The notes beneath the pieces are model-generated. The model was not told the DNA's origin and searched no databases. It saw only the letters and a list, made by a program, of their open reading frames with translations. Below are positions 9,486-62,022 of a stretch of 64,000 bases of DNA, piece by piece (the first letter of the stretch is position 1; the number at the start of each line of letters is the position of its first letter). The position numbers and the translations under genes are program-made. The stretch lies in contig NZ_JALNMJ010000003.1 in assembly GCF_023156505.1 (NCBI RefSeq), positions 62,001-126,000 on the forward strand, read 5' to 3'. This DNA is from Roseibium sediminicola. GTDB taxonomy: Bacteria; Pseudomonadota; Alphaproteobacteria; Rhizobiales; Stappiaceae.

Positions 9486-9601
9486 CTTGCGGGATCCTGA
9501 ATCCTGCATTGCTATCCTCCGGCGAATTTGGTTGTCTTTCAAATGCAATGCGGGCTTAGTAAGCCTTTGATGGACAATCCTTGCCTGGGAGGAAATGCGC
9601 G

Positions 9602-11488: not shown

Positions 11489-13371
11489 ACTTCAAAAATT
11501 CCATCCGGGCCGGTCTGTTTCTGACCGCGGCCATGATCGCGGGGCCGGTGGCCGCGCTGGAGCTGAAGGAGACGCCCGGCCTCGACCCGTCTCTGCCGCC
11601 CGTTGCCGAACGGGTGCCGTCGGAACCCTTGATCGTTGACCTGGAGGCCACCGGCCGTACGGTCGGCAAACACGGCGGCAAGATCGACACGCTGATCGGT
11701 CGCGCCAAGGATGTGCGTCTGATCAATGTCTGGGGGTACGCCCGCCTGGTCGGCTACAATGAAAAGCTGGATCTGGTTCCCGACATTCTGGAAAATGTCG
11801 AGGTGGAAGACGGCCGCATCTTCACGCTGCACACCCGCGAAGGCCACAAATGGTCGGACGGTCATCCGTTCGGGGCGGAAGACCTTCGCTATTACTTCGA
11901 GGATGTGGTCAGCAACGAGGAACTGACCCCGTCCGGTCTGCCGCCCTTCCTGATGGTGAACGGCAAGGGCCCGAACTTCGAGGTGCTGGACGAAACGACG
12001 GTGCGCTTTACCTGGGACGACCCCAATCCGCTGTTCCTGCCGGAACTGGCCAAGTCGCGTCCGCCGTTCATCTACCGCCCGGCCCATTACCTGAAGCAGT
12101 TCCACGACAAATACGGCGACGCCGATTTCATCGCGAAGGAAGCCGAAAAGGTCAAGGCACGCAGCTGGGCGCCGCTGCACAACAAAAAAGACGACATGTA
12201 TAACGCCCAGAATGTCGACATTCCGTCGCTTCAGCCCTGGGTGCGCAAACGCGACGACAGCGATCTGCGCTTTGTTCTGGAACGCAATCCCTATTACCAC
12301 CGCGTCGACAGTACCGGCCAGCAGCTGCCCTATGTCGACGAGGTCATCATGACGGTGGCCGACGGCAAGCTGATCCCGGCCAAGGCTCAGGCGGGCGAAA
12401 GCAACCTTCAGGCCCGCAATCTCAGCTTCTCCGATATCACGGTCCTGAAAAAGGGCGAGAAGCAGAACGACTATGTGACTGCGCTCTGGTCCAACAGCAA
12501 GGGCTCGGAAATCTCGATCCTGCCGAACCTGACCGTCAAGGATCCGGTCTGGCGCGAGCTCCTGCGCGACACACGTTTCAGGCATGCCCTGTCGGTGGCC
12601 ATCGACCGCAACCTGCTCAATCGGGTGCTGTTCTTCGGTCTCGGCACACCGGGCAATGACACGGTGCTAGCCTCCAGCCCGCTCTACAAGGCCGAACTCA
12701 CGACCAAATGGGCGGACTACGACCCGGACAAGGCCAACGCTCTTCTGGACGAAATCGGTCTGACCGAGCGCAACGGCAAAGGCATCCGCCTGATGCCCGA
12801 CGGCCGTCCGCTGGAAATCATCGTCGAGACCTCCGGCGAAGAACAGGTGCAGGACGATGCCCTGGAGCTGGTCAAGGAAATGTGGAAAGAGGTCGGCGTC
12901 GCGCTTTTTGCCAAGCCGAGCCAGCGGGACAACATGCGCGAGCGGGCGATCACCGGCGATCTGGTCATGTCCGTCTGGACCGGCTTTGAAAACGGCATTC
13001 CGACGTCCGAAATGCCGCCGGACGATTTCGCGCCGGTGCGCGGCGACGCGTTTTCCTGGCACAAGTGGGGCGATTATTACGAGACCCAGGGTGAGGGCGG
13101 TGAAAAGCCCGACTGGGCCCCGGCCGAGCGCCTGATGGAGCTTTACAAATCCTGGTTGGTTTCGAAGACACCAGAAGAGCGCACCAAGATCTGGGAGGAA
13201 ATGCTGCAGATCCACGCCGACGAAACCATCCATATTGGGCTGGTCTCGGGTGTCCGTCAGCCGGTCGTGGTCAAGGGCCTGGAAAATGTCCCGTTGGAAG
13301 GCATCTACGGTTGGGACCCGGGCGCGCATTTCGGAATTCACCGCATGGATGAGTTCTACTTTAAAAACTGA
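11485..13371 (+). CDS. ABC transporter periplasmic substrate-binding protein (SBP_bac_5)
   Basis: A 628-residue exported binding protein. An N-terminal signal peptide ends near VAALEL (about residue 25). The body has SBP_bac_5 features: HTREGHKWSDGHPF, RHALSVAIDRNLLN and a C-terminal region rich in Trp and acidic residues. At over 600 residues it belongs to the longer subgroup found with this permease pair. Proteins of this family capture peptides, opines or similar amphiphilic solutes. It is translationally coupled to the ATPase upstream and separated from the permeases by 245 bases that contain a hairpin. Confidence 0.92.
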   Translation: MNFKNSIRAGLFLTAAMIAGPVAALELKETPGLDPSLPPVAERVPSEPLIVDLEATGRTVGKHGGKIDTLIGRAKDVRLINVWGYARLVGYNEKLDLVPDILENVEVEDGRIFTLHTREGHKWSDGHPFGAEDLRYYFEDVVSNEELTPSGLPPFLMVNGKGPNFEVLDETTVRFTWDDPNPLFLPELAKSRPPFIYRPAHYLKQFHDKYGDADFIAKEAEKVKARSWAPLHNKKDDMYNAQNVDIPSLQPWVRKRDDSDLRFVLERNPYYHRVDSTGQQLPYVDEVIMTVADGKLIPAKAQAGESNLQARNLSFSDITVLKKGEKQNDYVTALWSNSKGSEISILPNLTVKDPVWRELLRDTRFRHALSVAIDRNLLNRVLFFGLGTPGNDTVLASSPLYKAELTTKWADYDPDKANALLDEIGLTERNGKGIRLMPDGRPLEIIVETSGEEQVQDDALELVKEMWKEVGVALFAKPSQRDNMRERAITGDLVMSVWTGFENGIPTSEMPPDDFAPVRGDAFSWHKWGDYYETQGEGGEKPDWAPAERLMELYKSWLVSKTPEERTKIWEEMLQIHADETIHIGLVSGVRQPVVVKGLENVPLEGIYGWDPGAHFGIHRMDEFYFKN

Positions 13372-13407
13372 CCCGGGGCTGTGTGGCCTAACACTCAAGA
13401 AAATCGG

Positions 13408-13439
13408 ACGGCCCGGCAGAAATTCCTGCTGACCGGGCC
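13408..13439. terminator. GC-rich hairpin after binding-protein gene
   Basis: Arms CGGCCCGG (13408-13415) and CCGGGCCG (13432-13439) pair perfectly around a 16-base loop. There is no T-run, so it is a weak terminator or, more likely, an mRNA-stabilising hairpin. Such a hairpin would raise binding-protein mRNA relative to the permeases, as known for other importer operons. The rest of the gap 13372-13616 holds only the upstream region of the permease gene. Confidence 0.45.
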
Positions 13440-13616
13440 GGCCCGGTGCCAATTCGGAAAAGGTCTTCCAAGACTTCTTCCAGTGTTGGCGCCGACGTGT
13501 TACGCCATGACCTGACACGTGCCGAAATTTCGTCATATGATCGAAACGGAAATCGACTTTTAGTGCGGGTATTCACGCAGCGGTCTGCACGGTGTCTGGG
13601 GTTGAGGGGAGTTTAG

Positions 13617-14642
13617 GTGCTCTATTACATTTTCCGCCGCATCTTTATGATGGTTCCCACCTTGCTGGTGATCAGTTTCCTGACGTTTTTGATCATCGAA
13701 CTTCCGGCTGGTGATTATATCTCCAACCAGATTGCCGCCCTGAAATCCTCCGGCGAAAGCTCTTCCGTCGCCAAGCTCGAATTCCTGCGTCAGGAGTTTT
13801 CCCTAGATCGGCCCTTTTTCGAACGTTACCTGATCTGGGTCGGACTCTGGCAGGGTCCGCATGGGTTCGACGGCCTGATCCAGGGCAACTGGGGCTGGTC
13901 CTTCGAATATGACAAACCGGTCGAACAGGTCATCGGACCGACCCTGCCGCTGACCGTGGTGCTCAATTTCGCCACGATCCTGTTCGTCTATGTGGTGTCC
14001 TTTCCGATCGGCATCTATTCCGCCACACGGCAATATTCCTGGGGTGACTACGGCATCACCTTTATCGGCTATATCGGCCTGGCCACGCCGAACTTCCTGC
14101 TGGCGCTGATCCTGCTCTATTTCTTCAATCGCTGGTTCGGCCTGTCGGTCGGCGGCCTGATGGACCCGCAATATATCGACCAGCCCTGGAGCTTCGATAA
14201 GGCGATGTCCGTGCTGGCCCATCTGATCGTGCCGACCATCGTCATCGGCACTTCCGGCACCGCGGCCATGATCCGGCGCCTGCGTGCCAACCTGCTCGAT
14301 GAGCTGCACCGGCAATATGTCACCACCGGGCGCGCCAAGGGGCTGAAGGAGAGCCAGCTCTTGGTCAAATACCCGCTCCGCATGGCGATCAACCCGTTCA
14401 TTGCCGATATCGGCAACCTGATCCCGTCAATGGTCTCCGGCTCGGTGATCGTCTCCGTGGTGATGAGCCTGCCGACCGTCGGGCCGGTTCTGGTCTCGGC
14501 GCTGCAGTCGCAGGATCAGTTCCTGTCCGGCTTCATCCTGCTGTTCGTTGCTGTGCTTACCCTGATCGGCATGCTGATCTCCGACCTGCTTCTGGCAGTG
14601 CTCGATCCGCGAATCCGGCTGGGCGGGAGGGCGTCCACATGA
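13617..14642 (+). CDS. ABC transporter permease (DppB-like)
   Basis: A 341-residue inner-membrane permease of the BPD_transp_1 family. A first membrane helix at about 9-30 is followed by a large extracytoplasmic loop and a bundle of five more helices. The EAA-type cytoplasmic loop that contacts the ATPase is at about 225-250 (TGRAKGLKESQLL). The GTG start at 13617 has GGGGAG upstream. It overlaps the next permease gene by four bases (ATGA). Confidence 0.92.
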   Translation: MLYYIFRRIFMMVPTLLVISFLTFLIIELPAGDYISNQIAALKSSGESSSVAKLEFLRQEFSLDRPFFERYLIWVGLWQGPHGFDGLIQGNWGWSFEYDKPVEQVIGPTLPLTVVLNFATILFVYVVSFPIGIYSATRQYSWGDYGITFIGYIGLATPNFLLALILLYFFNRWFGLSVGGLMDPQYIDQPWSFDKAMSVLAHLIVPTIVIGTSGTAAMIRRLRANLLDELHRQYVTTGRAKGLKESQLLVKYPLRMAINPFIADIGNLIPSMVSGSVIVSVVMSLPTVGPVLVSALQSQDQFLSGFILLFVAVLTLIGMLISDLLLAVLDPRIRLGGRAST

Positions 14643-15820
14643 GCATCGAGATGAAAGACAAGACGCCGCAGCGCGTGGTCGAGCATTATGTCGATCCGAC
14701 GCCGTTCAACCCGGCCACCACCGAGGAGATGACGGCGGAGCAGGAGCGTTTCTATCAGGCGTCCCAGTGGCAGATCATGTGGTGGAAGTTCAAGCGCCAC
14801 AAGATTGCGGTCTGGTCCGGCGTGATCCTGATCCTGTTCTATCTGTGTGTGCCCTTCGCGGAACTGATTGCGCCCTATGACGCAAACACCCGCGACAGCC
14901 TGCATCTTTATGCGCCGCCACAACCGATCCATCTGTTCCACGAGGGCAGCTTCGTCGGGCCGTTCGTCTATGGCATGACCTCGGAAATCGACATGGAGAC
15001 CCTGCAATGGGTGTTCAAGGACGATCCGACCCAGGTCCAGAAGCTGCGATTCTTCTGCAGCGGCGACGATTACGAATTCTGGGGCCTGTTCGACGCCTCC
15101 TTCCATCTGGTCTGCCCCGCCGAAGGCGGCACGATGTTCCTGCTCGGCACGGACCGCCTCGGACGCGACCAGTTCTCCGGGCTTGTCTATGGCGCGCGGC
15201 TGTCGCTCACCGTCGGTCTGATCGGCGTTTTCATCTCGATCGTCCTCGGGCTCTTTTTCGGCGGCATTGCCGGCTATTTTGGCGGGCTTGCCGACAGCGT
15301 GATCCAGCGCTCCATCGAGATCATCCGATCGCTGCCGGAGCTGCCGCTTTGGATGGCGCTTTCCGCGGCGCTGCCGGTGACCTGGAGCCCGGTGTGGATC
15401 TATTTCGGCCTGACCATCATTCTGGGTCTGCTCGACTGGCCGGGGCTGGCACGGGCCGTGCGCTCCAAGCTCCTGTCCCTGCGCGAAGAGGAATATGCCA
15501 AGGCGGCCGTGCTGATGGGGGCAAAACCGAAGCGGGTCATCACCCGGCATCTGCTGCCCGGCTTTACCAGCCACATCATCGCCTCTGCGACCCTGTCGAT
15601 CCCGTCGATGATCCTTGGCGAAACCGCGCTCTCCTTCCTCAATCTGGGCCTGCGCCGACCGTCGATTTCCTGGGGGGTTCTGTTGAACGAAGCGCAGAAT
15701 ATCTCGGTGGTGACGGTCTATCCCTGGCTGATGGCGCCGGTGCTCCCGATCATCATCGTGGTGCTGGCGTTCAATTTCCTCGGCGACGGTTTGCGCGACG
15801 CGGCCGATCCCTATAAGTGA
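14639..15820 (+). CDS. ABC transporter permease (DppC-like)
   Basis: A 393-residue second permease of the same importer. It has an extended cytoplasmic N-terminus (about 60 residues), an OppC-type first helix, a long extracytoplasmic insertion of about 100 residues and the core permease domain with the LGTDRLGRDQFSG motif. The ATPase-contact loop is near YAKAAVLMGAKPKRV. The insertion is longer than in classic DppC and fits the subgroup that works with the large binding protein encoded upstream. Confidence 0.92.
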   Translation: MSIEMKDKTPQRVVEHYVDPTPFNPATTEEMTAEQERFYQASQWQIMWWKFKRHKIAVWSGVILILFYLCVPFAELIAPYDANTRDSLHLYAPPQPIHLFHEGSFVGPFVYGMTSEIDMETLQWVFKDDPTQVQKLRFFCSGDDYEFWGLFDASFHLVCPAEGGTMFLLGTDRLGRDQFSGLVYGARLSLTVGLIGVFISIVLGLFFGGIAGYFGGLADSVIQRSIEIIRSLPELPLWMALSAALPVTWSPVWIYFGLTIILGLLDWPGLARAVRSKLLSLREEEYAKAAVLMGAKPKRVITRHLLPGFTSHIIASATLSIPSMILGETALSFLNLGLRRPSISWGVLLNEAQNISVVTVYPWLMAPVLPIIIVVLAFNFLGDGLRDAADPYK

Positions 15821-25604: not shown

Positions 25605-25935
25605 GACTGGCTTGGTCTGGGACTAGGCCTCTAGGATGCGGATGCGGGAAGCCGTGGCGCTCGGTCAGCGCTGCCAGAATGGCGTCCTTGTCGTCGATAA
25701 ATCCGCCCTCGGCAAGCACCAGAACCGGCAGGCTCTGATGGGCTTCGCCCAGAAGCTTGACGATTTCCCAGCGCGGTTTCGGCCAGGCGATCCGGCGGAC
25801 ATCGAGTTTGGCGGCAAGCTCCGGGAACGACGCCAGAATTCCTTCCATCAGGGCGCAGTGCCAGCAATAGAAGGTCCTGTACGGATAGGCCGGGTCCTCG
25901 AAACCGGGGGCAAGAAGGAACAGAGTGTCTTTCAT
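25366..25935 (-). CDS. DUF3088 protein with an 88-residue non-homologous tail
   Basis: Residues 1-101 form a complete DUF3088 protein (thioredoxin-like in style, with TFYCWHCALMEG, SLPVLVL and FIDDKDAIL) and would normally end at RHGFPHPHP. Here the natural TAG is one base out of frame, so translation continues for 88 Pro/Arg-rich residues that are antisense to the LysR gene. A single-base deletion at about 25634 would explain this. It is the last gene of the glycosyltransferase operon (ATGA overlap with the gene before). DUF3088 function is unknown. Confidence 0.7.
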   Translation of the reverse strand: MKDTLFLLAPGFEDPAYPYRTFYCWHCALMEGILASFPELAAKLDVRRIAWPKPRWEIVKLLGEAHQSLPVLVLAEGGFIDDKDAILAALTERHGFPHPHPRGLVPDQASLRSLGCCCPQAVWSGQPMPATQIHAAPWSLPARPGGTSRNTRAGNLPTGRSTAAELRFEETGPATRPSTGKCPDRPALH

Positions 25936-26726
25936 GCCGCAGCGGGCTCCGAAGTCTGGTCACCGGGCCGGCCGAACAAATCTTTCACCCCCGGCCAATC
26001 CGCCCCGTCATGATGCGCCGCGATCTCCAGGAACACCTCCAGGAACTCGAAACAGCCGGCGTCATGCACCAAGTGATGCGTCAGCAGCCCGAGCGGTTCG
26101 TCACCGGTGTTGCGCCGGCGGGTCAATTGCAGGTCAAAGCGCAGGCGCGCGCTTTCCCAGCCGATGAAGCGGACCTGCTTCTTCCATTTCAGGATGTCGA
26201 CATGGGACTGGACCTGGATGTCGCGCGGAAAATTGAACCAGGTGAAGGTGGAAAGACCCGGAAGGCCTATGCCGGGCAGGCGGCGGCAGATCTCCGGCGC
26301 GATCCGGTTCCAGGGCGGCACCATGACCGGCAGGAACTTCTCGCCGAAAAGGGCCTCCAGCCGCGCTTTGCCGTCGTTGAGCTCGGCCATCAGCGCATCG
26401 GGGTCGCGGCGCGTGCCCAGTTCGGCGGCCTTTTCGCCGAGATCCTTGCGCTGGAAATTCTTGTGCTGCCAGCCATGCTGCAGCACGAAAGCATGGGGTT
26501 CCGCTGAAAGGCGTTCCGCCAGCGCCTCTGTGGCGTCCTTCGGAATGACCGCAAGCGCCAGATCGACGTCATACCGGTTGGCAAGCTCCTGCATCCGGTC
26601 AAGAGCGGGCGTCGGCGCGACGGCATCGTCGTCCCGCCACCAGAAACGCACCTTGCGGCCGCGCTCGGCGAACCAGTCGAGATGCGCGGTCAGCTCTTGT
26701 TGAAAGCGCTGCAGGTCAGACGTCAT
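25932..26726 (-). CDS. Polysaccharide deacetylase-like protein
   Basis: A 264-residue protein of the NodB-type (CE4) superfamily by layout: a metal Asp-Asp in FWWRDDDAVAP (about 29-37), His ligands in LQHGWQHKN (about 83-91) and VMVPPWNRI (about 138). A late motif LLTHHLVHD supplies a further His. CE4 enzymes remove acetyl groups from N-acetylated glycans. No signal peptide is visible, so it would act in the cytoplasm on a precursor. It is coupled by ATGA overlaps to its neighbours in the glycosyltransferase operon. Confidence 0.78.
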   Translation of the reverse strand: MTSDLQRFQQELTAHLDWFAERGRKVRFWWRDDDAVAPTPALDRMQELANRYDVDLALAVIPKDATEALAERLSAEPHAFVLQHGWQHKNFQRKDLGEKAAELGTRRDPDALMAELNDGKARLEALFGEKFLPVMVPPWNRIAPEICRRLPGIGLPGLSTFTWFNFPRDIQVQSHVDILKWKKQVRFIGWESARLRFDLQLTRRRNTGDEPLGLLTHHLVHDAGCFEFLEVFLEIAAHHDGADWPGVKDLFGRPGDQTSEPAAA

Positions 26727-27877
26727 GCATTCCGCTCTTTCAGGTCTTGGATTAGGATACGCGCGCTTTCCTCGGCACCGCCGAGGCGGACGGCGTGGGA
26801 ACTGCGGGGCAGCGCAAGGGCATCGTCGATGGCCCCGGCCAGACGTTCCGGTGTCAAACCCTCTTCCGGGATCACCACGGCGCGGCCATGTCGCGCAAGG
26901 GCCACTGCGCGTTGCGTCTGCTCGGTCTCGTTGACCTGGGCAAAGGGAACAAACACGGCCGGCACCCCGGCAACCAGGATATCGAGCACCGTGTTGTAGC
27001 CGGCCTGGCTGACGGAAAGCCGTGCGCGCTTTAAAAGCTCCGGAAAGTCGGGGCGCGCGCGCTCCACAAACACGCCTTCCGCCGCGCTCTGTTTGTAAAT
27101 GGCAAAGGCATCGCCCGAAATGTCGTGACCGATCAGCACCCGCCAGTGTGTGTCTTCCGCGCGCCGCGACAAGGGCCTGGCATCGAGAGCCGCTGAGAGC
27201 AGGCTCTCGGCAACCGCGCCGCCGCCACAGGAAATGATGATCTCGTCCTCGCCGTCAGCACTGCCCGATGATGGACGTGCGGCGGTGCCGACATAGCCGG
27301 TGTAGCGCACCAGCGCGTCGACATCGTCGGCAAAGGGGAAGCTGTCGCCGAGCCGGATGAAGTCCGGATCGGAGTGGACCAGGATGCGGTCGTAATACTT
27401 CAGTGCCTGGTCTGCCATCCAACGCTCTTTCCAGAGCTCCTTCTTGCGCACCAGGATGTCGCGGATCGAGGTGGCGATCAGCGGTGGTTTTGAACGGGCC
27501 TCGGCGGCTTCCAGGAGCGGTGTCAGCTCGAAATCGAGCTGCCGCCGGCCGAAGGGATAGGTCTCCGTCAGGAGCAGATCGTAATCCCGTGCCTCAAGTG
27601 CTTGAATCGATGCTTTAACGCGAGCGGATTTCCAAGCATCGTCAATATCTTCATTGTCCAAGGTGACAAGGCGCTTGAACGCAGCGTCCGGGCTTTTGCA
27701 GGCCGGCAGTTCGACAATCTCCAGCGGTCCCGTGTCCAGCGTCGGCGGAATTCTGTTGCCGCTGGCAAGCGTCACCGAGACGCCTTCGGCGGCAAGTGCC
27801 TTGCCGATCGCGGCGGCGCGCACAACGTGACCGGTGCCGAGCAGATGTTGCACGTGAATGAAGGCGTTCAGGGTCAT
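26723..27877 (-). CDS. Glycosyltransferase, MurG/GT28-like
   Basis: A 384-residue GT-B enzyme. The N-terminal domain starts with HVQHLLGTGHVVRAAAIGKALA, the MurG-type glycine loop; the C-terminal domain has IIISCGGGAVAE and SQAGYNTVLDILVAGVPAVFVPF, the donor-binding region of GT28 enzymes. The donor is probably a UDP-sugar; the acceptor is unknown. The ATG at 27877 overlaps the previous stop (ATGA). It is a paralogue-like partner of the gene at 30290-31507. Confidence 0.82.
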   Translation of the reverse strand: MTLNAFIHVQHLLGTGHVVRAAAIGKALAAEGVSVTLASGNRIPPTLDTGPLEIVELPACKSPDAAFKRLVTLDNEDIDDAWKSARVKASIQALEARDYDLLLTETYPFGRRQLDFELTPLLEAAEARSKPPLIATSIRDILVRKKELWKERWMADQALKYYDRILVHSDPDFIRLGDSFPFADDVDALVRYTGYVGTAARPSSGSADGEDEIIISCGGGAVAESLLSAALDARPLSRRAEDTHWRVLIGHDISGDAFAIYKQSAAEGVFVERARPDFPELLKRARLSVSQAGYNTVLDILVAGVPAVFVPFAQVNETEQTQRAVALARHGRAVVIPEEGLTPERLAGAIDDALALPRSSHAVRLGGAEESARILIQDLKERNA

Positions 27878-29001
27878 TTATCCGGGCTTTCTTTGCCGGA
27901 GGAATGGTTGCGCAGGGCCTTTTCCACGAGAGCTTCCAGCCTGGCAGCGCCCGCCGGCAGGCTGTGAAAATCAAGAATATGCTGGCGCGCGGCAAAGCCC
28001 AGCCGGTCGGCCAATTCAGGCTCCTGCAGCACGCGCAGGAGATTGGCCGCCAGGGCCGAAACATCGCCCTCCGGGGAGAGCAGGCCGGTTTCTCCGGCGC
28101 GGACGATATCGGGAATGCCGAAGGTGTCGCCGGCAACGACACCGAGACCGGCTGCCTGGGCCTCCAGCAGAACCAGACCGAAGGCTTCGCGGATGGCCGG
28201 CCAGACCAGCAGGTCATGACGGGCGTAATGCTCGGGAAGCGCATCGGGCTCCAGTGCCCCGAGAAAGCTGATCCGTTCCGGCGGGAACAAGCTCAGAATG
28301 TGATCGCGCATCGGACCGTCGCCGATGATCGTCAGGTGCCAGGGCTGGTGGCGCAGCTCGGCGAGCGTGGCGGCCAGAACCTCATAGGAACGGGTTTTGT
28401 CGCCCTCGCGCATCATGCCGACAGAGAGCAGTTTGAGCGGTGCGGCGGCCAGCGGCTTGGCCGCGGTTGAGGCTTTGAGGAACGGCCCGGCATCCAGAAA
28501 CGGCAGCAGCACCGACAGATTGCGATGCGGCACCGCGGCCGCCAGGCAGTCCAGATCTGCATTGTGGATCGCGGCGACAGCGTCCGCACGCGCCAAGGCC
28601 ACATCGGCCGCTGCGAAGCCGAAAGCCCAGTCGCCACGCTGGCGTTTCGGCGCCCGGCTGGCCTCGACAATGGCATAGGACAGGTCGAAACGGTCGGCGA
28701 GTGCGGGGCCGATCCAGTCCGGCGCCTTATGGTAGAGGTGATAGGTCAGGAACAGGTCCGGCCGGTAGCCGGTCCGCTCCCAGTCTGCGGCGATCCGCTC
28801 CGCTTCGGCGAGGGCCTCGGCCTTCACCTCGGCCTGGAGCGCGTCGCTGCCCTCCTTGCGCCAGGCCCGGAAGCGGCTGGCGATCGTGACCTCATGGCCA
28901 AGGCTTTCCAGCGCCCGGACGATCAGCCGGCCCATGGTCCGGTCTCCGGAGGGAACCGGATGGTCCAGCGGTTTCATCGGCGCTGTGAAGGCGATTTTCA
29001 T
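27874..29001 (-). CDS. Glycosyltransferase family 4/1 protein
   Basis: A 375-residue GT-B glycosyltransferase with an N-terminal KIAFTAPMKPLDHPVPSGD loop, a GT1-type C-terminal domain (LLSVGMMREGDKTRSYE) and the donor-site E-x7-E motif in REAFGLVLLEAQAAG. The start is the ATG at 29001 with AGGA six bases upstream. It is the third gene of the operon from 31507. The operon as a whole points to assembly of a surface glycan or glycolipid. Confidence 0.85.
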   Translation of the reverse strand: MKIAFTAPMKPLDHPVPSGDRTMGRLIVRALESLGHEVTIASRFRAWRKEGSDALQAEVKAEALAEAERIAADWERTGYRPDLFLTYHLYHKAPDWIGPALADRFDLSYAIVEASRAPKRQRGDWAFGFAAADVALARADAVAAIHNADLDCLAAAVPHRNLSVLLPFLDAGPFLKASTAAKPLAAAPLKLLSVGMMREGDKTRSYEVLAATLAELRHQPWHLTIIGDGPMRDHILSLFPPERISFLGALEPDALPEHYARHDLLVWPAIREAFGLVLLEAQAAGLGVVAGDTFGIPDIVRAGETGLLSPEGDVSALAANLLRVLQEPELADRLGFAARQHILDFHSLPAGAARLEALVEKALRNHSSGKESPDK

Positions 29002-29024
29002 GTCTGTCCTCATGCGGCCAGCGT

Positions 29025-30245
29025 TCAGAGCACTTTACGAAATTTCTCCGCCAGACGGTCAAGCCCGGGATCGGTGGAAAAGGCTGTCCGGACCCGCGTT
29101 GCCGCCGCCAGCCCCAGCTTGTGGCGCGTTTGAGGGGCCTGAATAAGGCGGCTCATGGCGTCTGCCAGCTGCCCTGGCGCACCAGGGTCGACCAAAACGC
29201 CGGTTTCACCGTCCAGAATAAGCTCTGGGATTGCGGAGACCTTGGTCGACAGGCAGCACAGGCCCATCGCCTGGGCCTCCATCAGCACATTGGGCAGGCC
29301 GTCGCGGTCACCGGATTTGGCGAGTTTCGACGGCAGCACAAAGAGATCGGCGTCCCGGCAAGCCGCGATCACCTCTTCGCGCGGCTGGGCGCCGCGCCAG
29401 GTGATCCGCTTTGAGAGATCAAGCGCCTCCGCCTGATCCTTCAAGGCGTCCGACAATTCCCCGCCGCCGATATGGGTGAAGTGCCAGTTGAGGCTGGCTG
29501 GCAGGGAGCTGAGCGCCGCCAGGAGATCGTCATAACCCTTTTTCTCGACGGCCCTGCCGACAGAGACGAGGCGAACAGGTTCTCCGGAGCCGTCACGCGG
29601 CGATGAAAGGTCTGCCGGTTCGGGAAAGCCGGAGAAATCGAGCCCGTGGTAAAGCAGTTCCACCTTTCCCGGATCGTCGGCAAGGCTGTTCAGATGCTGT
29701 TCGTTGACCGCGGTGCAGGTCACGCCCCAGGCGGCATCGTTGATCTTGGTCTTCAGGTCCCAGTCGGGGCTTGTCCAGATGTCCTTGGCATGGGCGGAAA
29801 ACGACCATTGCCGGCCGGACAGATGCGCCGCGTAGCGGGCGGCCGAGCACGGCGTGTGCAGGTAATGGGTGTAGATCCAGGCGATGTCGTCGGGCAACTC
29901 ATGGGCAAAGACGCAGCCCTGCGCCCAGCGCCGCCGGCGGTCCGCATTTGGCTGGTGGGCGAAATCGGCATCGAACAGGGCCTTTGCCGCCGCATAGGTC
30001 GGTTGTTTTTCCGCCCAGCGCTTCGCCCGCGCGACCCGTGCCGGATCGTCTTTGACATATTCCGGCAGATACATCACCTCGGCGGAGATCTGCCGGTGCA
30101 GCTCGTGGATGAACGGGTCGTAGGGTTTGCGCAGCGCCACGATCAGAATGCCGATGCCGCGCCGTTCCAGTCCGAGAATTTCCTGGGCGATAAAGGTTTC
30201 GGACAGGCGCGGATAGCCTTTGACCACAACGGCGATACGGGACAT
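29025..30245 (-). CDS. Glycosyltransferase family 4 protein
   Basis: A 406-residue GT-B enzyme similar to colanic-acid type GT4 proteins. It opens with VVVKGYPRLSETFIAQEI, a hallmark of this subgroup. The C-terminal domain has LVSVGRAVEKKGYDDLL and DGLPNVLMEAQAMG (donor binding). It probably adds one sugar to a lipid-linked or growing chain on the cytoplasmic side of the inner membrane. The gaps to its neighbours are 44 and 23 bases. Confidence 0.88.
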   Translation of the reverse strand: MSRIAVVVKGYPRLSETFIAQEILGLERRGIGILIVALRKPYDPFIHELHRQISAEVMYLPEYVKDDPARVARAKRWAEKQPTYAAAKALFDADFAHQPNADRRRRWAQGCVFAHELPDDIAWIYTHYLHTPCSAARYAAHLSGRQWSFSAHAKDIWTSPDWDLKTKINDAAWGVTCTAVNEQHLNSLADDPGKVELLYHGLDFSGFPEPADLSSPRDGSGEPVRLVSVGRAVEKKGYDDLLAALSSLPASLNWHFTHIGGGELSDALKDQAEALDLSKRITWRGAQPREEVIAACRDADLFVLPSKLAKSGDRDGLPNVLMEAQAMGLCCLSTKVSAIPELILDGETGVLVDPGAPGQLADAMSRLIQAPQTRHKLGLAAATRVRTAFSTDPGLDRLAEKFRKVL

Positions 30246-31738: not shown

Positions 31739-34321
31739 ATGGAAAAGAACCTTTTCGGTTTTATTTGGAAGTATAGCGCCAAGCAGCAGATCTTCATTAT
31801 TCTGGTCACCGTGCTCACTTATCCGGTGGTCTATTTCCTGCTCGAGCTGCCGAAACTGATTGTCAACGACGCGGTGCAGGGCGACAATTTTCCGCGCACG
31901 GTTGTCGGCTTCGACTTCGATCAGATTCCCTATCTGTTACTGCTTTGTTTTACCTTCCTGTTTCTGGTGGTCGTCTCCAATGGGCTCAAATTCTATCTGA
32001 ACGTCTACAAGGGCCGGCTGGGCGAGCGCATGCTGCGCCGTTTGCGATTTGAATTGTTTCAACGGGTACTGCGATTCCGCCTGCCGCATTTCAGAAAGGT
32101 CAGCTCCGGCGAGATCATTCCAATGATCACCTCGGAAGTGGAGGATGTCGGCGGCTATATCGGTGAAGCCTTTGCCTTGCCCGCCTATCAGGGCGGCATG
32201 CTGATCGTGCAGCTGGGCTTTATCTTCATGCAGGATCCACTGCTCGGCCTTGCCGCGGTCAGTTCCTATCCGATCCAGGGTTATGTTATTCCGCTGTTGC
32301 AGCGACGCGTCGTTATCTTGTCGCGCATGCGGGTGAAAAACGTTCGCCTGATCGCAGACAAGGTCGGCGAGAGCATCACCGGGGTTGCGGAAATCCACGC
32401 CAACGATGCGGCGGCCTGGCATTCAGCGGACATTTCGGACCGGCTCTACGAGAACTTCAAGATCCGTTACGAGATCTTCAACCGGAAGTTCCTGATCAAG
32501 TTCCTGAACAACTTCATGAACCAGCTGACGCCGTTCTTTTTCTACCTGATTGGCGGTTACCTGGTGATTGAAGGTAATTTGAGCATCGGCGCGCTTCTGG
32601 CGGTGATCGCGGCCTACAAGGATCTCGCCGGCCCCTGGAAGTTGCTTCTGTCTTTCTATCAGATGACGGCCGATGTCAGCGTCAAATACCAGACAGTGGT
32701 GGAGAATTTCGACCCGCCCGACATTTACGACACCGAGCGGCTGACCAACGACGACACGGTCGTGCTCGATGGCGATGTGAAGTTCGAAAGCGTCAATTTC
32801 TCCGGTGGCGCGGCCGGACAGGAGGTCATGGATGTCTCGCTGACCGTTCCGGCAGGCAGTGCCTGCGCCATCGTCGGCCCGGACGGTTCGGGGCGCTCGG
32901 AGGTCCTGCAGCTTGCGGCCGGGCTGGTCTCCGCCTCGACCGGTAAGGTCTCGATCGGCGAACACGATCTCGACAAGCTCACCGACGCAACGCTCGGGCG
33001 GGAAATCGCCTATGTCGGCGGGGCGGTCCATGTCTGGACCGGAACCATCCGCGACAACCTTTATTACGGCCTTCGCCACCGGCCGCTGGTGCCACCGCAA
33101 AGGGAGGGCGAGGACCTGAAAAACTACAAACGCCGCGTCAGCGAAGCGAAGCTGACCATGAACCCGGTTTATGATCTGGGCGCGCTCTGGGAGGATTTCG
33201 AGGCCGCCGGTGTCGACAACGAACGCGCGCTTGACGGCAAGGCGCTGGAACTGCTGAAGGCAGTCAAGATCGACAATGACATCTACCGGCTCGGCCTTCA
33301 GTCCCGATTCGACCCGTCGATGGACGACGGCTTTGCCGACAAGATCCTGAGCGTGCGTAACAATCTGGCCGATCGGCTCGCCAAGGAACCGGCGCTGGGC
33401 GGTCTGGTCGAACTCTGGCACCGGGACCGGTTCAACTCGAGTGCGAGCCTGGCGGACAACCTGTTCTTCGCCGTGCCCTCCGATCCTGAAATCACCATGG
33501 ACGAAGTGCCGGATCTGCCGGAAGTGAAGGCCTTTTTGTCCGAAACCGGCTTTGACAAGAAACTGCAGCAGATCGGCTTGAAAATCGCCGAGACCATGCT
33601 GGAGCTGTTCTCGAATGTCTCCGGCGACAGCGGTCTTCTCGGGGCCTATTCCTTCATCACGCTGGACGAAATTCCCGACTTTGAGCGGATTGTCCGGGTG
33701 GCCAAGTCCGAGCAGCAGCGGCCCGGCCTGAGCGAGGCCGACCAGTCGCGCCTGCTTGGCCTGGCTTTCAAGCTGGTCCCGGCCCGCCATCGTCTCGGTG
33801 TCATGGATGACGATCTCAAGACGGAAGTGGTCGAAGCGCGCAAGCGTTTCCTGGATGGCGTGGTCAGCAACTCCGACCAGTTCGTCGCCTTCGATCCGGA
33901 TGTCTATCTGCCGACCCTGACCATCGAGGACAACCTTCTCTTCGGCCGGGCCCGTGTCGACCGCCGGGACGCCCGGCGCCGGATCGACGACGTCATCCGG
34001 GCCATCGTCGAGGAGACCGGCTTGCGTCATCCGATCATCTACGCCGGCTTCGGTTACCACGTCGGTGTGGCCGGATCCAAGCTTTCCGCGGGGCAGCGCC
34101 GCAAGATCGCCCTCGTGCGCGGGCTTCTGAAAAACGCAAAAATCACCATATTGGATGATATCGCGACCGGAATGACCGAGGATGACAAGGAACTGCGCAA
34201 CGGATTGCGCGCCACCCTTGCTGGCAAAACCTTCTTGTACGGCACGTCCAATGCCGACATTGCGGCTGAATTCGATCAACAGTTTGTATTCGATCAAGGA
34301 CGGCTTTCTGACAAGGGATAG
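31739..34321 (+). CDS. ABC exporter with enlarged, degenerate ATPase domain
   Basis: An 860-residue protein. The N-terminal 300 residues form an exporter-type membrane domain (six helices expected, first at about 18-40). The nucleotide-binding domain is abnormal. Walker A is GPDGSGRS (380-387) with Arg for Lys. The Q-loop Gln is lost (YVGGAVHVW). About 340 residues separate this from the signature LSAGQRRK (782-789). Walker B ITILDD (802-807) has Asp for the catalytic Glu, and the H-loop reads YGTSNAD without His. The insertion holds three similar motifs, TIRDNLYYG (436-), SLADNLFFA (570-) and TIEDNLLFG (728-), suggesting repeated helical subdomains. ATP hydrolysis may be lost or altered. A cyclic-nucleotide-binding gene follows. 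Confidence 0.8.
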   Translation: MEKNLFGFIWKYSAKQQIFIILVTVLTYPVVYFLLELPKLIVNDAVQGDNFPRTVVGFDFDQIPYLLLLCFTFLFLVVVSNGLKFYLNVYKGRLGERMLRRLRFELFQRVLRFRLPHFRKVSSGEIIPMITSEVEDVGGYIGEAFALPAYQGGMLIVQLGFIFMQDPLLGLAAVSSYPIQGYVIPLLQRRVVILSRMRVKNVRLIADKVGESITGVAEIHANDAAAWHSADISDRLYENFKIRYEIFNRKFLIKFLNNFMNQLTPFFFYLIGGYLVIEGNLSIGALLAVIAAYKDLAGPWKLLLSFYQMTADVSVKYQTVVENFDPPDIYDTERLTNDDTVVLDGDVKFESVNFSGGAAGQEVMDVSLTVPAGSACAIVGPDGSGRSEVLQLAAGLVSASTGKVSIGEHDLDKLTDATLGREIAYVGGAVHVWTGTIRDNLYYGLRHRPLVPPQREGEDLKNYKRRVSEAKLTMNPVYDLGALWEDFEAAGVDNERALDGKALELLKAVKIDNDIYRLGLQSRFDPSMDDGFADKILSVRNNLADRLAKEPALGGLVELWHRDRFNSSASLADNLFFAVPSDPEITMDEVPDLPEVKAFLSETGFDKKLQQIGLKIAETMLELFSNVSGDSGLLGAYSFITLDEIPDFERIVRVAKSEQQRPGLSEADQSRLLGLAFKLVPARHRLGVMDDDLKTEVVEARKRFLDGVVSNSDQFVAFDPDVYLPTLTIEDNLLFGRARVDRRDARRRIDDVIRAIVEETGLRHPIIYAGFGYHVGVAGSKLSAGQRRKIALVRGLLKNAKITILDDIATGMTEDDKELRNGLRATLAGKTFLYGTSNADIAAEFDQQFVFDQGRLSDKG

Positions 34322-34419: not shown

Positions 34420-34878
34420 ATGACACTTGAGACCGAAGTCGAGGCCCTCCGAAAGGTGCCGCTCTTTCACGGCATTGATGAAACAAAGCTGCGCTTGCTG
34501 GCATTTATCAGCGACCGTACGGAGTATCCGGAAGGCGAGCGGTTGTGCTCTCAAGGCGAAGAAGGTGACTGCGCCTTTATCATCTTGTCCGGCGATGCCG
34601 ATGTTCTGGTGGCGACGCCGGAAGGAGAAAAGAAGGTCGCGCAGGTTTCTGAAAATTCAATCGTTGGCGAAATTGCGATTCTGTGCGACGTACCAAGAAC
34701 CGCGACACTTGTTGCTGCGAACAACATGGATGTTTTGACCGTTTCGAAAGACGATTTCTTGAAACTCTTGAAAGAATTTCCGGATATCTCACTTGAAGTG
34801 ATGCGGACTTTGGCTTTGCGTCTCGAGCGGACAACCAGAGATCTGGCCGATGCGCGCCGTGGTGCCGGCGCCGGCTGA
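34420..34878 (+). CDS. Stand-alone cyclic-nucleotide-binding domain protein
   Basis: A 152-residue soluble protein made of one CRP-type cNMP-binding domain (about 15-130) with no DNA-binding domain. The phosphate-binding cassette reads GEIAILCDVPRTATL, with the Glu and Arg that hold cyclic nucleotide in place. A C-terminal helix follows (VMRTLALRLERTTRDLADARR). It may regulate the upstream ABC protein or the downstream hydrolase by contact. It starts 98 bases after the ABC stop and ends 10 bases before the MBL gene. Confidence 0.9.
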   Translation: MTLETEVEALRKVPLFHGIDETKLRLLAFISDRTEYPEGERLCSQGEEGDCAFIILSGDADVLVATPEGEKKVAQVSENSIVGEIAILCDVPRTATLVAANNMDVLTVSKDDFLKLLKEFPDISLEVMRTLALRLERTTRDLADARRGAGAG

Positions 34879-34888
34879 GGAGTGGCAT

Positions 34889-35713
34889 GTGACCGAGGAA
34901 TTTTCGCTTCGCTGCTGGGGCGTCAGAGGATCCACACCGACCCCCGGGTCGAGTACGCTCCGTTATGGCGGCGAAACCTCCTGCTTCGAAATCCGTGCGG
35001 GCGATGCGCTCGTCCTGGTCGATTGCGGATCCGGTGCCCGCAATCTCGGTATGGAAATCTGCAAGTGCAACACGCGCTCCTTTGATCTCCTTTTCACGCA
35101 CACCCATCTCGACCACATCTGCGGTCTGCCGTTTTTCAAACCTGCTTACGATCCGAGTTTCGAGGTCACCGCCTGGGCCGGGCATTTTCAGGACGGCACA
35201 GAACTGGTGGATATTGTCAGCCGGATCATGTCGCCGCCGATCTTTCCGGTGGCGGCGAAGACGCTCAAGGCGGTCGAGTTCAAGTCCTTTGCCGCAGGTG
35301 ACCCGATTCCAAGATCCGATGACCTCGTGATCCGGACCACCAAACTGAATCATCCGGGCGGCGCCTGCGGTTATCGCTTCGAATTTCACGGCAAATCGAT
35401 TTGCATCATCACGGATCACGAGCACGGCGATCCCGAGATCGACGCTGCCCTGCCGGACTTTGTCCGGGACACGGATGTCATGATCTATGACGCCATGTTC
35501 ACCGATGACGAATATCTGACCTACAAGGGCTGGGGCCATTCCACCTGGCAAAAGGCGGTTCAGCTGGCGAAGGACGGCAATGTCCGGACGCCGGTGCTGT
35601 TTCACCATGATCCACGCCGCTCGGATGACGAATTGGATGAAATCGGCCTGGCCGCGCAAAATGCCTATCCAGGCACCCTCGTTGCCAGCGAAGGCATGGT
35701 GCTGCGTCCCTGA
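34889..35713 (+). CDS. MBL-fold metallo-hydrolase (phosphodiesterase/RNase Z-like)
   Basis: A 274-residue metallo-beta-lactamase-fold hydrolase. It begins with RCWGVRGSTPTPGSS, typical of this subgroup, and carries the zinc motif THTHLDH (about 64-70), LNHPGG, ITDHEHGD and a late LFHHDP His. Relatives include RNase Z and cyclic-nucleotide phosphodiesterases. Linkage to a cNMP-binding protein makes cyclic-nucleotide hydrolysis a reasonable guess, but it is not shown. The GTG at 34889 is chosen because GAGGAG lies six bases upstream; an ATG at 34850 lies inside the previous gene. Confidence 0.85.
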   Translation: MTEEFSLRCWGVRGSTPTPGSSTLRYGGETSCFEIRAGDALVLVDCGSGARNLGMEICKCNTRSFDLLFTHTHLDHICGLPFFKPAYDPSFEVTAWAGHFQDGTELVDIVSRIMSPPIFPVAAKTLKAVEFKSFAAGDPIPRSDDLVIRTTKLNHPGGACGYRFEFHGKSICIITDHEHGDPEIDAALPDFVRDTDVMIYDAMFTDDEYLTYKGWGHSTWQKAVQLAKDGNVRTPVLFHHDPRRSDDELDEIGLAAQNAYPGTLVASEGMVLRP

Positions 35714-37175: not shown

Positions 37176-37292
37176 ATACAACTGGGAACCCGCTCGCGGT
37201 TGCTCACTTCCGGTCACTTTCCGGTAGGCCGCTTGCGCAAACGCGCGCCGGCGTGGAAACTCCGCACACTCATTCTTTGCAGTGGCGTCGTG

Positions 37293-38648
37293 ATGGCTTC
37301 TTTTCTGAACAATGTGAAATACGTCCTGCGCGGCGGTCCGCCGGAAACCGGTCTTCCGGAGCGGATCCGCGATGACATCCGCGCCCGGGAGGCGTCTTCG
37401 GAGCGGTTGATCGGCTGGGTCCAGCTGGGCATTGTGCTGTTCTTTTCCACGCTTTACGCGATCGCGCCCCGCGCGGAGGGCTCTGCCGGGTTCAACTTCG
37501 TGCCGCTCGCCCTGGCGGCCTATTTCCTTTTCACGGTGCTCCGGCTGGTGCTGTCCTACCGGTTTGAGCTGCCGCAGTGGTATCTGTTGATCTCTATCTT
37601 TGTCGACATGAGCCTGCTGGTCGGACTGATCTTTTCCTTCCATATCCAGTATGACCAGCACCCGACCTTCTACTTAAAGACACCGACGCTGATGTATGTG
37701 TTCATCTTCATCGGCTTGAGGGCACTGCGTTTCGATCCGCGTTTCGTGCTGACGACCGGTCTGGTCGCGGTCGCCGGCTGGCTTGGCCTGGTCTTTTATG
37801 CGGTGATTGCCGACATGGACCGCATGCGGGTCACCCGCAACTATGTCGAATACCTGACCGGCAACACCATCCTGGTCGGTGCAGAACTGGACAAGACCAT
37901 GGTCATTCTGGCGGTCACGGTCATCCTGTCCGTGGCCCTTTACCGGGGGCGGTCCATGCTGTTCGAGGCCACCAGGGATCATGCCGCGGCCATGGATTTG
38001 AGCCGGTTTTTCTCGCCCGAAGTGGCCGCCTCCATCACAGGTGCGGACACCGAACTGCAGGCAGGTGAAGGCGTTCAGCGTGACGCCGCGATCCTTTATG
38101 CCGACATCCGCTCCTTCACGTCGACCTCGGCGACCCTGGCGCCGGAAACGGTGCTGGCCGTGCTGGCGGAATACCAGAACATGGCCGTCGAGGTGATCGT
38201 CGAGGAAGGCGGCCGCGTCGACAAGTTCCTGGGCGACGGCATCCTGGCAACCTTCGGCGCGGTTCACCCGTCCGAGACCTATGCCGCAGACGCGCTGCGG
38301 GCCGCTGCGCGCCTGGTTGAGAGCGCTGCCAACGAGCAGGCGCGGTTCAAAGCTGCCGGCTGGCCGGAGGAGCTTCGCATCGGCACTGCAGTGTCCGCCG
38401 GTCCGGTCACCGTCGGTGTGATCGGTTCGAAACGCAGGCTTGAATTCACGGTGATCGGCGATGCGGTCAACCGGGCTGCCAAACTTGAGGACGCCAACAA
38501 GATCCAGAAATCCAAGGCGCTGACCGACCGGACAACCTTCGAGCTGGCCTGTGCGCAAGGATACGCGGTGCCTTTGCTGGAATCGCGCCCGGCGGAAGCG
38601 GTCGCCGGCATGAAGACGCCGGTCGACCTGGTTGTCCTGGCCCGATAG
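37293..38648 (+). CDS. Membrane-bound class III adenylate/guanylate cyclase
   Basis: A 451-residue cyclase. About six membrane helices fill residues 35-235 with only short loops, unlike the CACHE-type cyclase at 7532. The catalytic domain (about 260-430) has both metal Asp residues, in ILYADIRSFT and DKFLGDGILATFG. The usual transition-state Arg in the NxxxR motif is Lys here (VNRAAKLE), so activity may be reduced. The ATG at 37293 is taken as start; an in-frame start at 37200 would add 31 residues. With the cNMP-binding and MBL proteins it could form a signalling set. Confidence 0.85.
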   Translation: MASFLNNVKYVLRGGPPETGLPERIRDDIRAREASSERLIGWVQLGIVLFFSTLYAIAPRAEGSAGFNFVPLALAAYFLFTVLRLVLSYRFELPQWYLLISIFVDMSLLVGLIFSFHIQYDQHPTFYLKTPTLMYVFIFIGLRALRFDPRFVLTTGLVAVAGWLGLVFYAVIADMDRMRVTRNYVEYLTGNTILVGAELDKTMVILAVTVILSVALYRGRSMLFEATRDHAAAMDLSRFFSPEVAASITGADTELQAGEGVQRDAAILYADIRSFTSTSATLAPETVLAVLAEYQNMAVEVIVEEGGRVDKFLGDGILATFGAVHPSETYAADALRAAARLVESAANEQARFKAAGWPEELRIGTAVSAGPVTVGVIGSKRRLEFTVIGDAVNRAAKLEDANKIQKSKALTDRTTFELACAQGYAVPLLESRPAEAVAGMKTPVDLVVLAR

Positions 38649-45253: not shown

Positions 45254-45484
45254 GCTCTCTCTCCTTCTGTCGGGGCGGGATTATCGCGCTCTGTGTCGCC
45301 CTTCTTGTCTCGCGCCGGCCAGGAGCCTGACATCGGCTGATGTGGCGAATCTGACCCATTGCGGCCGACAAGGCCTTGATCCGTGTCAACTCTGGGCAAG
45401 CTTTAAGAAACCGGCCATACTCGCCCCTTATGATTCCGTGCTCGGGTTCCTGCGCTCAGGATCCACGCCTCCGGAGACGGTGTG

Positions 45485-47989: not shown

Positions 47990-48002
47990 GGGGCATTATT
48001 CC

Positions 48003-61314: not shown

Positions 61315-62022
61315 CTAGCCATTACTGCTGAAGCTTGTGCGCGACACGTCCGGGGTCAGCGTCTGGTCGAAAACAAAGCCGGCACTTGCCAATGTCAGTG
61401 TCGCGGTCACGCCGCTTTCACTGGATGAATAATCGATCGAGCTGCCGATTTGAGCCGACAGTGCCTTTACCAGTCGTGTTCCCAATCCATTGGCGGTCTT
61501 GCTCGTGCCAGCGCTCCCAAGGCCTGGCCCATTGTCGTTGACCATAATCAGGATTGAACCGCTGATATCTTTTCGACAGGCAATCCCGATCCGCCTCACT
61601 GCACCGGCGCGATGACCATACTTGAGGGCGTTGGTGACGATCTCGGTAAAGATCTGCGCAACGGGGAGCACATGATCGAATTTCAAGGCACAGCCAGGCG
61701 CGTAGGTTTCGGTGAAAATGACGTCGTCCGCAATGCCCGACCTGAGGGTTGTGCAAATCTGGCCCAGAAGATCCCCCAACTGAACTTCGTCTTCGGAACC
61801 GCTGCCGGCAAGAATACGGTGCAAGTCCGACACGGCCTGAATATGTGCACTGATCGCGTTCAATAGCAACGCGACTTCCATGGCCTCCAATGGGCTTTCC
61901 TGTCTCGTGAGACCGATCCCCTTCAGGCGAACATAACTGGACAGCAGGCCCAGGTGATTGGCGATCCGATGGTCGGCCTCGAGGGAACCGGTGGAGCGGG
62001 CTTTGTTTCTGAACTTTCGCAT
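61315..62022 (-). CDS. HWE/HisKA_2-type sensor histidine kinase (no sensor domain)
   Basis: A 235-residue kinase that consists only of the dimerisation and ATPase parts. The H-box is LEADHRIANHLGLL (His 18), the N-box EIVTNALKYGH, G1 VNDNGPGLG and G2 NGLGTRLVKAL. HisKA_2 kinases often act in general stress signalling through PhyR; whether this one does is not shown. The start ATG 62022 (GAGG upstream) leaves no input domain, so it might be controlled by a partner. Confidence 0.85.
   Translation of the reverse strand: MRKFRNKARSTGSLEADHRIANHLGLLSSYVRLKGIGLTRQESPLEAMEVALLLNAISAHIQAVSDLHRILAGSGSEDEVQLGDLLGQICTTLRSGIADDVIFTETYAPGCALKFDHVLPVAQIFTEIVTNALKYGHRAGAVRRIGIACRKDISGSILIMVNDNGPGLGSAGTSKTANGLGTRLVKALSAQIGSSIDYSSSESGVTATLTLASAGFVFDQTLTPDVSRTSFSSNG

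Follow-up and report, generated by a model that had tools for sequence, protein, structure and literature searches.

The 64,000-nucleotide stretch of the Roseibium sediminicola genome analysed here (hereafter the window; positions 62,001 to 126,000 of contig NZ_JALNMJ010000003.1, assembly GCF_023156505.1) carries the gene for an 860-residue protein, P0001, which by its predicted fold is a type IV ATP-binding cassette (ABC) exporter with a single nucleotide-binding domain (NBD) fold that is split by an insert. The transmembrane domain (TMD) scored 58.4 bits with the Pfam exporter model PF00664 and the NBD 66.4 bits with PF00005, both above their gathering cut-offs (28 and 25 bits, respectively). 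The AlphaFold2 (AF2) model of the whole protein, with a predicted local distance difference test score (pLDDT) of 88.2 and a predicted template modelling score (pTM) of 0.83, contains the TMD and a complete NBD fold, and all 50 PDB entries among the matches listed in a fold search with this model were ABC transporters. The best NCBIfam match was MsbA, at 155.9 of 602 bits and hence below the curated cut-off. An ATG at the same place as that at 31739 was found in all six named Stappiaceae relatives inspected, while the conservation of the first methionine in our 73-row family alignment (A1, from which 13 of 86 rows, mostly longer than 950 residues, were left out) is partly built in, as starts had been picked near the query start. 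The gene is single in its own genome, where the next matches reached no more than 66.7 bits with 20-38% identity, and among the matches listed its nearest named relatives are Roseibium aggregatum and other Stappiaceae, at up to 87% identity.

ABC transporters are defined by ATP hydrolysis, and to our knowledge there are few whole families which keep the transporter body and have given up the motor. In P0001 the seven scored ATPase residues read RSGSDDS, against KSQSDEH or KTQSDEH in all eight ordinary exporters of its own genome, and the full set of Walker A lysine, Q-loop glutamine, Walker B Asp-Glu and H-loop histidine is not present. A sequence-only reading of this DNA had noticed the arginine in Walker A, the missing Q-loop glutamine, the DD of Walker B and the absent H-loop histidine, all of which the alignment confirmed; it had also put about 340 residues between Walker A/Q-loop and the signature, and Asn440 of the first of three recurring elements named after their residues DNL indeed precedes the signature by 342. 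We then compared 161 full-length relatives, drawn from 119 plus 80 retrieved proteins; each covers P0001 from a point ahead of residue 62 to one past residue 800, near-identical ones having been removed, and the survey leaves out TMD-only proteins, very divergent members such as L259, and class members found but not retrieved. A profile scan of public genome contigs confirmed at least 576 stretches, and the 80 retained are mostly alphaproteobacterial, with some metagenome-assembled genomes labelled Gammaproteobacteria or Burkholderiales. (A separate 56-row alignment was obtained from 70 rows by removing the truncated L034 and duplicates.) Not one of the 161 kept all seven ATPase residues, which were complete in eight out of eight ordinary exporters in the same alignment. 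The best-kept sites retain six residues in two relatives and five in nine, and 53 relatives have none or one left. Position by position, the Walker A lysine is present in 59 and the following Ser/Thr in 37, the Q-loop glutamine in 25, the signature serine in 101, the Walker B aspartate in 46 and the catalytic glutamate in 70, and the H-loop histidine in 36. On a tree of the TMD the Walker A lysine state changed at least 19 times and the H-loop histidine state 16 times, which points to recurrent losses. The replacements are not random, position 387 being acidic in 96 and position 806 asparagine in 90 of the relatives. A compensatory charge swap between the two was considered and rejected, as the combination occurs in 70 rows but is not significant on the TMD tree (8 independent pairs, median p 0.5); it is a lineage pattern only.

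The NBD is furthermore enlarged from within. The sequence-only reading had taken the three DNL elements for repeats of the helix that follows the Q-loop and had wondered about their conservation in homologues; profile comparison and HMMER matches bear out the first, and the asparagine is kept in 161 of 161 relatives in elements 2 and 3 and in 148 in element 1. The repeat unit, composed of Q-loop strand, DNL helix, strand and helices, covers approximately residues 416-470 (its distal helix lying further on), 546-618 and 706-776. In the profile comparison repeats 1 and 2 scored 29.6, repeats 1 and 3 37.0, and repeats 2 and 3 80.8, against 17.1 or less for 40 of 41 control windows compared with any repeat and a maximum of 19.0 over 112 window-to-window pairs. 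The remaining control window, residues 471-540, reached 28.6 against repeat 2 and 22.9 against repeat 3; in all likelihood it belongs to repeat 1 as its distal half. With an HMMER profile of the insert, 31 genomes gave matches, and four of these had an additional match in repeat 3 (E 1.7e-11, 4.9e-11, 5.3e-11 and 6.5e-7). This showed that the DNL elements mark true internal repeats and that the NBD has grown by duplicating its segment from Q-loop to helix. The stretch from 446 to 728 is 271-284 residues long across the 73 aligned relatives, and the insert modelled alone gave a confident AF2 model (pLDDT 92.5, pTM 0.80), which matched no PDB fold at E ≤ 0.001; its top PDB sequence match was the equivalent region of the CydC NBD, at a non-significant E of 0.28. 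A known Pfam domain was also sought in the insert and discarded, no match at E ≤ 1 being common to more than 3 of the 73 members. The simpler picture of one ordinary NBD interrupted by an unrelated domain therefore holds in part: there is one NBD fold and it does carry an inserted domain, yet this NBD departs from the ordinary, and within the insert lie a further copy of the host segment and the lead-in to another. As a separate observation, a protein at L259:3434-6022 has the same kind of degenerate NBD with a repeat-bearing insert, joined to a TMD for which BLAST gave no match with that of the family, and several genomes of group f42 gave similar insert matches, which suggests that the NBD-insert module has also moved or diverged separately.

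We asked how selection has acted on the two halves of the protein. Against four Roseibium relatives the ratio of nonsynonymous to synonymous substitution (dN/dS) was 0.036-0.069 for the TMD, the lowest of all regions in all four comparisons, 0.046-0.233 for the two NBD halves and 0.138-0.295 for the insert; these values are rough, synonymous sites being near saturation (proportion of synonymous differences 0.53-0.72). Since the ratios lie at 0.036-0.295 across all regions, the NBD is not decaying freely. Within the family the NBD core was less conserved than the TMD in 72 of 72 rows (medians 0.301 and 0.561), while an ordinary exporter from 24 genomes of the order showed the reverse in 24 of 24 rows (0.645 for the NBD core against 0.552 for the TMD), this control being a single exporter with an internal stop in one of its 24 rows. 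Constraint on the TMD was thus shown to be of the ordinary kind; the NBD, having lost catalytic residues, is retained under a different one.

The gene immediately downstream of P0001 encodes a single-domain cyclic-nucleotide-binding protein, which scored 71.1 bits with PF00027 and has an intact phosphate-binding cassette. We counted such partners by BLAST (E ≤ 1e-4) for 158 proteins with at least 900 nucleotides of downstream sequence, 154 of them full length. A cyclic-nucleotide-binding open reading frame (ORF) lies within 2.5 kb of, or is fused to, 146 of the 154 full-length relatives: 135 have it as a neighbour within that distance, 11 carry it fused (one of these also with a neighbour) and 8 have neither. 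Behind these 8 stand 9 ORFs before duplicate removal, of which 6 have a partner farther off in the locus and 3 have none in the examined stretch. The GE-x8-R cassette is intact in 66 of the 68 separate partners lying immediately downstream. Pfam confirmed a C-terminal cyclic-nucleotide domain in all ten scanned members longer than 1000 residues and found none in two members of 951 and 990 residues, and the fused state, labelled by BLAST in 14 tree rows, requires at least five changes on the TMD tree. Nearly all full-length members in this survey were thus shown to have a cyclic-nucleotide-binding partner, either encoded next to them or fused.

Four relatives match the TMD and then stop, with open frames of 483 (L255), 425 (L256), 360 (L257) and 382 residues (L258, open at the contig end). 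No NBD was found at E ≤ 1e-3 in the stretches flanking the four genes, and a match to the insert is absent from two of their genomes, G470 (91% complete) and G578 (94%). In the three membrane blocks they retain 22-24 of 33, 20-23 of 25 and 24-32 of 39 conserved columns (62-92%), and in two cytoplasmic regions presumed to contact the NBD they keep just 0-2 of 6 and 0-4 of 6 conserved columns, against a median of 6 of 6 in full-length rows for both (minima 0.50 and 0.33). None of the four has a cyclic-nucleotide-binding neighbour, against the 146 of 154 above (Fisher p 2e-5, for sequences that are related and not independent); no homologue of the partner was found in G470 at E ≤ 1e-10, and G578 has two distant ones. 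L257 is divergent from, and adjoins, the same four glycosyltransferase (GT) genes, GT_a to GT_d, as the full-length gene in the window. One TMD-only member gave a weak Pfam match to SbmA_BacA (E 0.0033; 17.4 of 24 bits, below the cut-off). Judged from sequence, these rare members were shown to be the membrane domain alone, with most of the conserved residues presumed to contact the NBD lost.

In the window a block of GT genes runs divergently from the P0001 gene and its partner, and an importer and a sensor cyclase lie further upstream (Table 1). The block includes a conserved 264-residue protein, GT_e, for which we found no Pfam, NCBIfam or convincing PDB match. Among 84 loci of the family, labelled by BLAST alone and with unequal flanks, so that all counts are lower bounds, we found the cyclic-nucleotide-binding gene in 68, GT_a, GT_b and GT_d in 65 each, GT_c in 59, GT_e in 43, the importer ATPase in 45, the substrate-binding protein in 39, the cyclase in 23 and the metallo-beta-lactamase (MBL)-fold hydrolase in 22. 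The linkage of the ABC-like gene to GT genes is strong. The oligopeptide-type importer at 9581-15820 travels with the GT cluster in many relatives, and directly upstream of its operon lies a dCache-HAMP-nucleotide cyclase gene (7532-9412, plus strand); the region as a whole holds two cyclases, one sensor and a possible phosphodiesterase. Three further genes recur in the 84 loci (seen in L150, L156 and L161-L163), namely c8, histidine-phosphatase-like (26), c6, a small membrane protein (24), and c9, SAM-methyltransferase-like (23), these names having been read from sequence by eye.

Table 1. Features of P0001 and of its neighbourhood in the window (positions 1 to 64,000).
Feature	Coordinates	Strand	Basis
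P0001, pseudo-ATPase ABC exporter-like protein, 860 aa	31739..34321	+	ORF, Pfam, AF2
TMD, residues 1-330, type IV exporter PF00664, most conserved part	31739..32728	+	Pfam, AF2, conservation
Walker A GPDGSGRS, residues 380-387, Arg386 for Lys	32876..32899	+	alignment
Q-loop position 428, Gly for Gln	33020..33022	+	alignment
DNL element 1, TIRDNLYYG, residues 436-444, repeat 1	33044..33070	+	alignment, profile comparison
Insert, residues 447-727 (281 aa), between Q-loop and signature	33077..33919	+	AF2, length survey
DNL element 2, SLADNLFFA, residues 570-578, repeat 2	33446..33472	+	alignment, profile comparison
DNL element 3, TIEDNLLFG, residues 728-736, repeat 3	33920..33946	+	alignment, profile comparison
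Signature LSAGQ, residues 782-786	34082..34096	+	alignment
Walker B ITILDD, residues 802-807, Asp807 for catalytic Glu	34142..34159	+	alignment
H-loop position 837, Ser for His	34247..34249	+	alignment
Single-domain cyclic-nucleotide-binding protein, PF00027, cassette GEIAILCDVPR	34420..34878	+	Pfam, BLAST
MBL-fold hydrolase	34850..35713	+	best matches RNase Z models; cyclic-nucleotide phosphodiesterase model weaker
Class III nucleotide cyclase, PF00211 (start codon chosen in this analysis)	37278..38648	+	Pfam
GT_a, glycosyltransferase, GT28-like C-terminal domain, transcribed away from the P0001 gene	30290..31507	-	
GT_b, glycosyltransferase, EpsE-like GT4	29025..30245	-	
GT_c, glycosyltransferase, GT4	27874..29013	-	
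GT_d, glycosyltransferase, GT28/MurG-like C-terminal domain	26723..27877	-	
GT_e, 264 aa, conserved, same strand and block as GT_a-GT_d	25932..26726	-	
Oligopeptide-type ABC importer: fused double ATPase, SBP_bac_5, two permeases	9581..15820	+	

A comparable block exists on pSymB of Sinorhizobium meliloti, where a relative of P0001 (35.6% identity in strain 2011) is accompanied by genes matching GT_a (51%), GT_b (49%) and GT_d (40%), and also by matches to the importer and to the cyclic-nucleotide-binding partner. In strain RCAM1750 the partner and FkbM methyltransferase genes lie between the ABC-like gene and a LacI regulator, and SM_b21272 is one of three pSymB genes named as LacI family in PMC11387232. 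If the regulator gene of RCAM1750 is SM_b21272, the block appears from gene order to lie within the region smb21252-smb21271, in which, according to PMC10128002, nine genes are needed for a surface polysaccharide (PPP) that protects S. meliloti from phazolicin. The same paper mentions cyclic AMP (cAMP) as a reported regulator of such genes and a cyaA mutant whose sensitivity changed only slightly, and according to PMC10315480 seven of the nine PPP genes are up-regulated under predation. In the S. meliloti 1021 reference (L229, NC_003078.1, approximately 841.7-842.4 kb) single-base indels relative to strain 2011 split the ABC-like frame in its 5' part; the frame is open throughout in strain 2011, and the split in 1021 is either a sequencing error or real.

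Since parts of the ATPase have been lost and a cyclic-nucleotide sensor stands beside or fused to the protein, P0001 is probably switched by a signal of the cell rather than powered by ATP. The suggestion in the sequence-only reading that it may no longer pump by ATP hydrolysis, or that a partner gates it, is supported at the level of sequence by the residue survey, the inverted conservation of NBD and TMD, and the neighbouring or fused cyclic-nucleotide domain. We favour, as somewhat probable, the view that P0001 is a translocator or assembly scaffold for a glycan or glycolipid, in which the dead NBD has turned into a cyclic-nucleotide-controlled gate. P0001 would then represent a widespread proteobacterial family in which the ATPase domain of an ABC exporter was converted from a motor into a regulatory domain. 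A homodimer would move, or anchor the assembly of, a glycan or glycolipid made by the adjacent glycosyltransferases, and the cyclic-nucleotide-binding subunit would dock on the pseudo-NBD and its insert, opening or closing the membrane domain in response to cAMP or cyclic GMP (cGMP), which the linked cyclases may make and the linked MBL-fold hydrolase may perhaps remove. Any energy for transport might be supplied by a gradient of ions or of the substrate itself, on the model of the SbmA/BacA transporters, which have no NBD. We hold more tentatively, and as a possibility that may well fail, a narrower version: an ATP-independent, cyclic-nucleotide-gated glycan translocator whose NBD became a docking platform for the cAMP/cGMP sensor when its Q-loop/helical segment was triplicated. 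The family, passing from near-canonical states (6 of 7 residues) through pseudo-ATPases to NBD-less proteins, would then show another way, next to that of SbmA/BacA, in which a primary transporter can turn into a secondary one.

Several points weigh against the favoured view. The evidence consists of sequences and predicted structures, from which we infer the absence of ATP hydrolysis, the docking, the gating, the energy source and the substrate, and ion coupling of P0001 is suggested by analogy only. Two genomes, G092 and G255, hold a full-length member besides the TMD-only one; the TMD-only proteins are a small number, four; in L255 the second contact region still has 4 of its 6 residues; and the contact regions were placed by sequence position and by what is generally known of the fold, and not with the help of coordinates. 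Of the 16 fusions found by BLAST, three lack a GE-x8-R match and some others are unusual. Since L075 and L180 keep six of the seven catalytic residues, a few relatives could hydrolyse ATP, and P0001 itself, with Ser387, Asp806 and LSAGQ retained, could bind it. The chief ways in which we could be wrong are that ATP is hydrolysed after all, or that an active half lies at a distance: a nearby partner exporter was sought with queries that recover 54 of 84 family ORFs and are therefore insensitive, yielding one non-family exporter-TMD ORF (L198) in the 84 loci, and a genome-wide partner was not sought.

Unlikely in our judgement, though deserving serious thought, is a membrane scaffold or receptor with no transport at all, which would report the cyclic-nucleotide level to the glycosyltransferases or assemble them. 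The converted NBD and the attached sensor would suit such a protein, and the position of L257 beside GT_a to GT_d suggests that the membrane part alone suffices for the association; however, that the strongest constraint falls on the TMD, in dN/dS and family-wide, suits a moving pathway better than an anchor. We find it improbable that the protein is still ATP-dependent, binding ATP in a degenerate site or hydrolysing it with rearranged residues while the cyclic nucleotide only modulates. Besides the residues which P0001 retains, the lysine kept in 59 relatives and the recurrent pattern of acidic 387 and Asn806 speak for this, as does the arginine found in Walker A of the degenerate site of ABCG5/G8 (PMC7756269). 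A homodimer, however, would have two degenerate sites, and the degenerate exporters described there keep one good site; moreover the NBD constraint is inverted, TMD-only members exist and the acid-387/Asn806 association is not significant once phylogeny is considered.

That P0001 is the degenerate half of a heterodimeric exporter with its active half elsewhere in the genome is very improbable. Known bacterial heterodimeric pairs are usually adjacent, and only L198 lay near in the 84 loci, although the same queries recover no more than 54 of the 84 family ORFs. In many members, moreover, the damage extends to Walker A, Walker B and the signature alike, so that neither composite site would be spared. 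What favours the heterodimer is that asymmetric pairs with one degenerate site are common (PMC7756269). We dismiss as next to impossible an ordinary exporter gene decaying in one lineage or a sequencing artefact, to which the motif losses of P0001 itself might point, given the family-wide losses, the full-length ORFs, the dN/dS values and the narrow length range of stretch 446-728.

Among known systems, the exporters with one degenerate site (TM287/288, TmrAB, ABCB2/B3, CFTR/ABCC7) resemble P0001 in TMD and NBD fold and likewise have non-catalytic residues at Walker A, Walker B and the H-loop. Unlike these, the P0001 family lacks a full set of catalytic residues throughout, and no active half turned up in its vicinity. 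Repeats have enlarged its NBD, and its cyclic-nucleotide-binding subunit comes from an adjacent gene or as a fused domain. SbmA/BacA (SLiPT) peptide transporters have an exporter-like TMD and work without ATP; PMC13316013 proposes that SbmA-type transporters are proton-driven and arose from ABC transporters by loss of the NBD and the coupling helices. The TMD-only relatives likewise have no NBD and have lost most of the conserved residues presumed to contact one. P0001 and the other full-length members still have an NBD, albeit degenerate, and contact residues that are conserved, and the family stays below the Pfam cut-off. P0001 also matches the NHLP/NHLM bacteriocin exporter models TIGR03796 (E 3.6e-37; 127.9 of 853.3 bits) and TIGR03797 (E 2.8e-24; 85.6 of 709.4 bits), and its partner the bacteriocin-transport-associated cyclic-nucleotide-binding model TIGR03896 (E 9.5e-11; 41.6 of 161.05 bits), all scores lying far under the curated cut-offs; these matches indicate that the pairing of a cyclic-nucleotide domain with an exporter has precedent, from which P0001 differs by its degenerate NBD and glycosyltransferase context. 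The PPP region of S. meliloti, if the assignment from gene order is right, is alike in its set of relative, GT, importer and partner genes.

The family is widespread. Matches to P0001 at E ≤ 1e-60 were found in 58 of 150 genomes sampled from the order, 111 of 337 from the class and 24 of 349 from the phylum (own genome counted in each), and 23 of these 24 belong to the same class or closer, the sole outsider being the TMD-only protein of G578. No description of the family turned up in the search listings of the literature covered. A family of this breadth, tied to a sensor and including NBD-less members, may offer a case for how primary transporters become signal-gated or secondary ones. P0001 is a candidate for moving a surface glycan that is conserved among alphaproteobacteria and as yet uncharacterised, and that would be linked to antimicrobial-peptide tolerance if the Sinorhizobium locus is the same. 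As a minor observation, the G+C content of the window rises to 0.713 at 46001-48000, against approximately 0.60 on either side, over an 835-aa ORF at 45482-47989.

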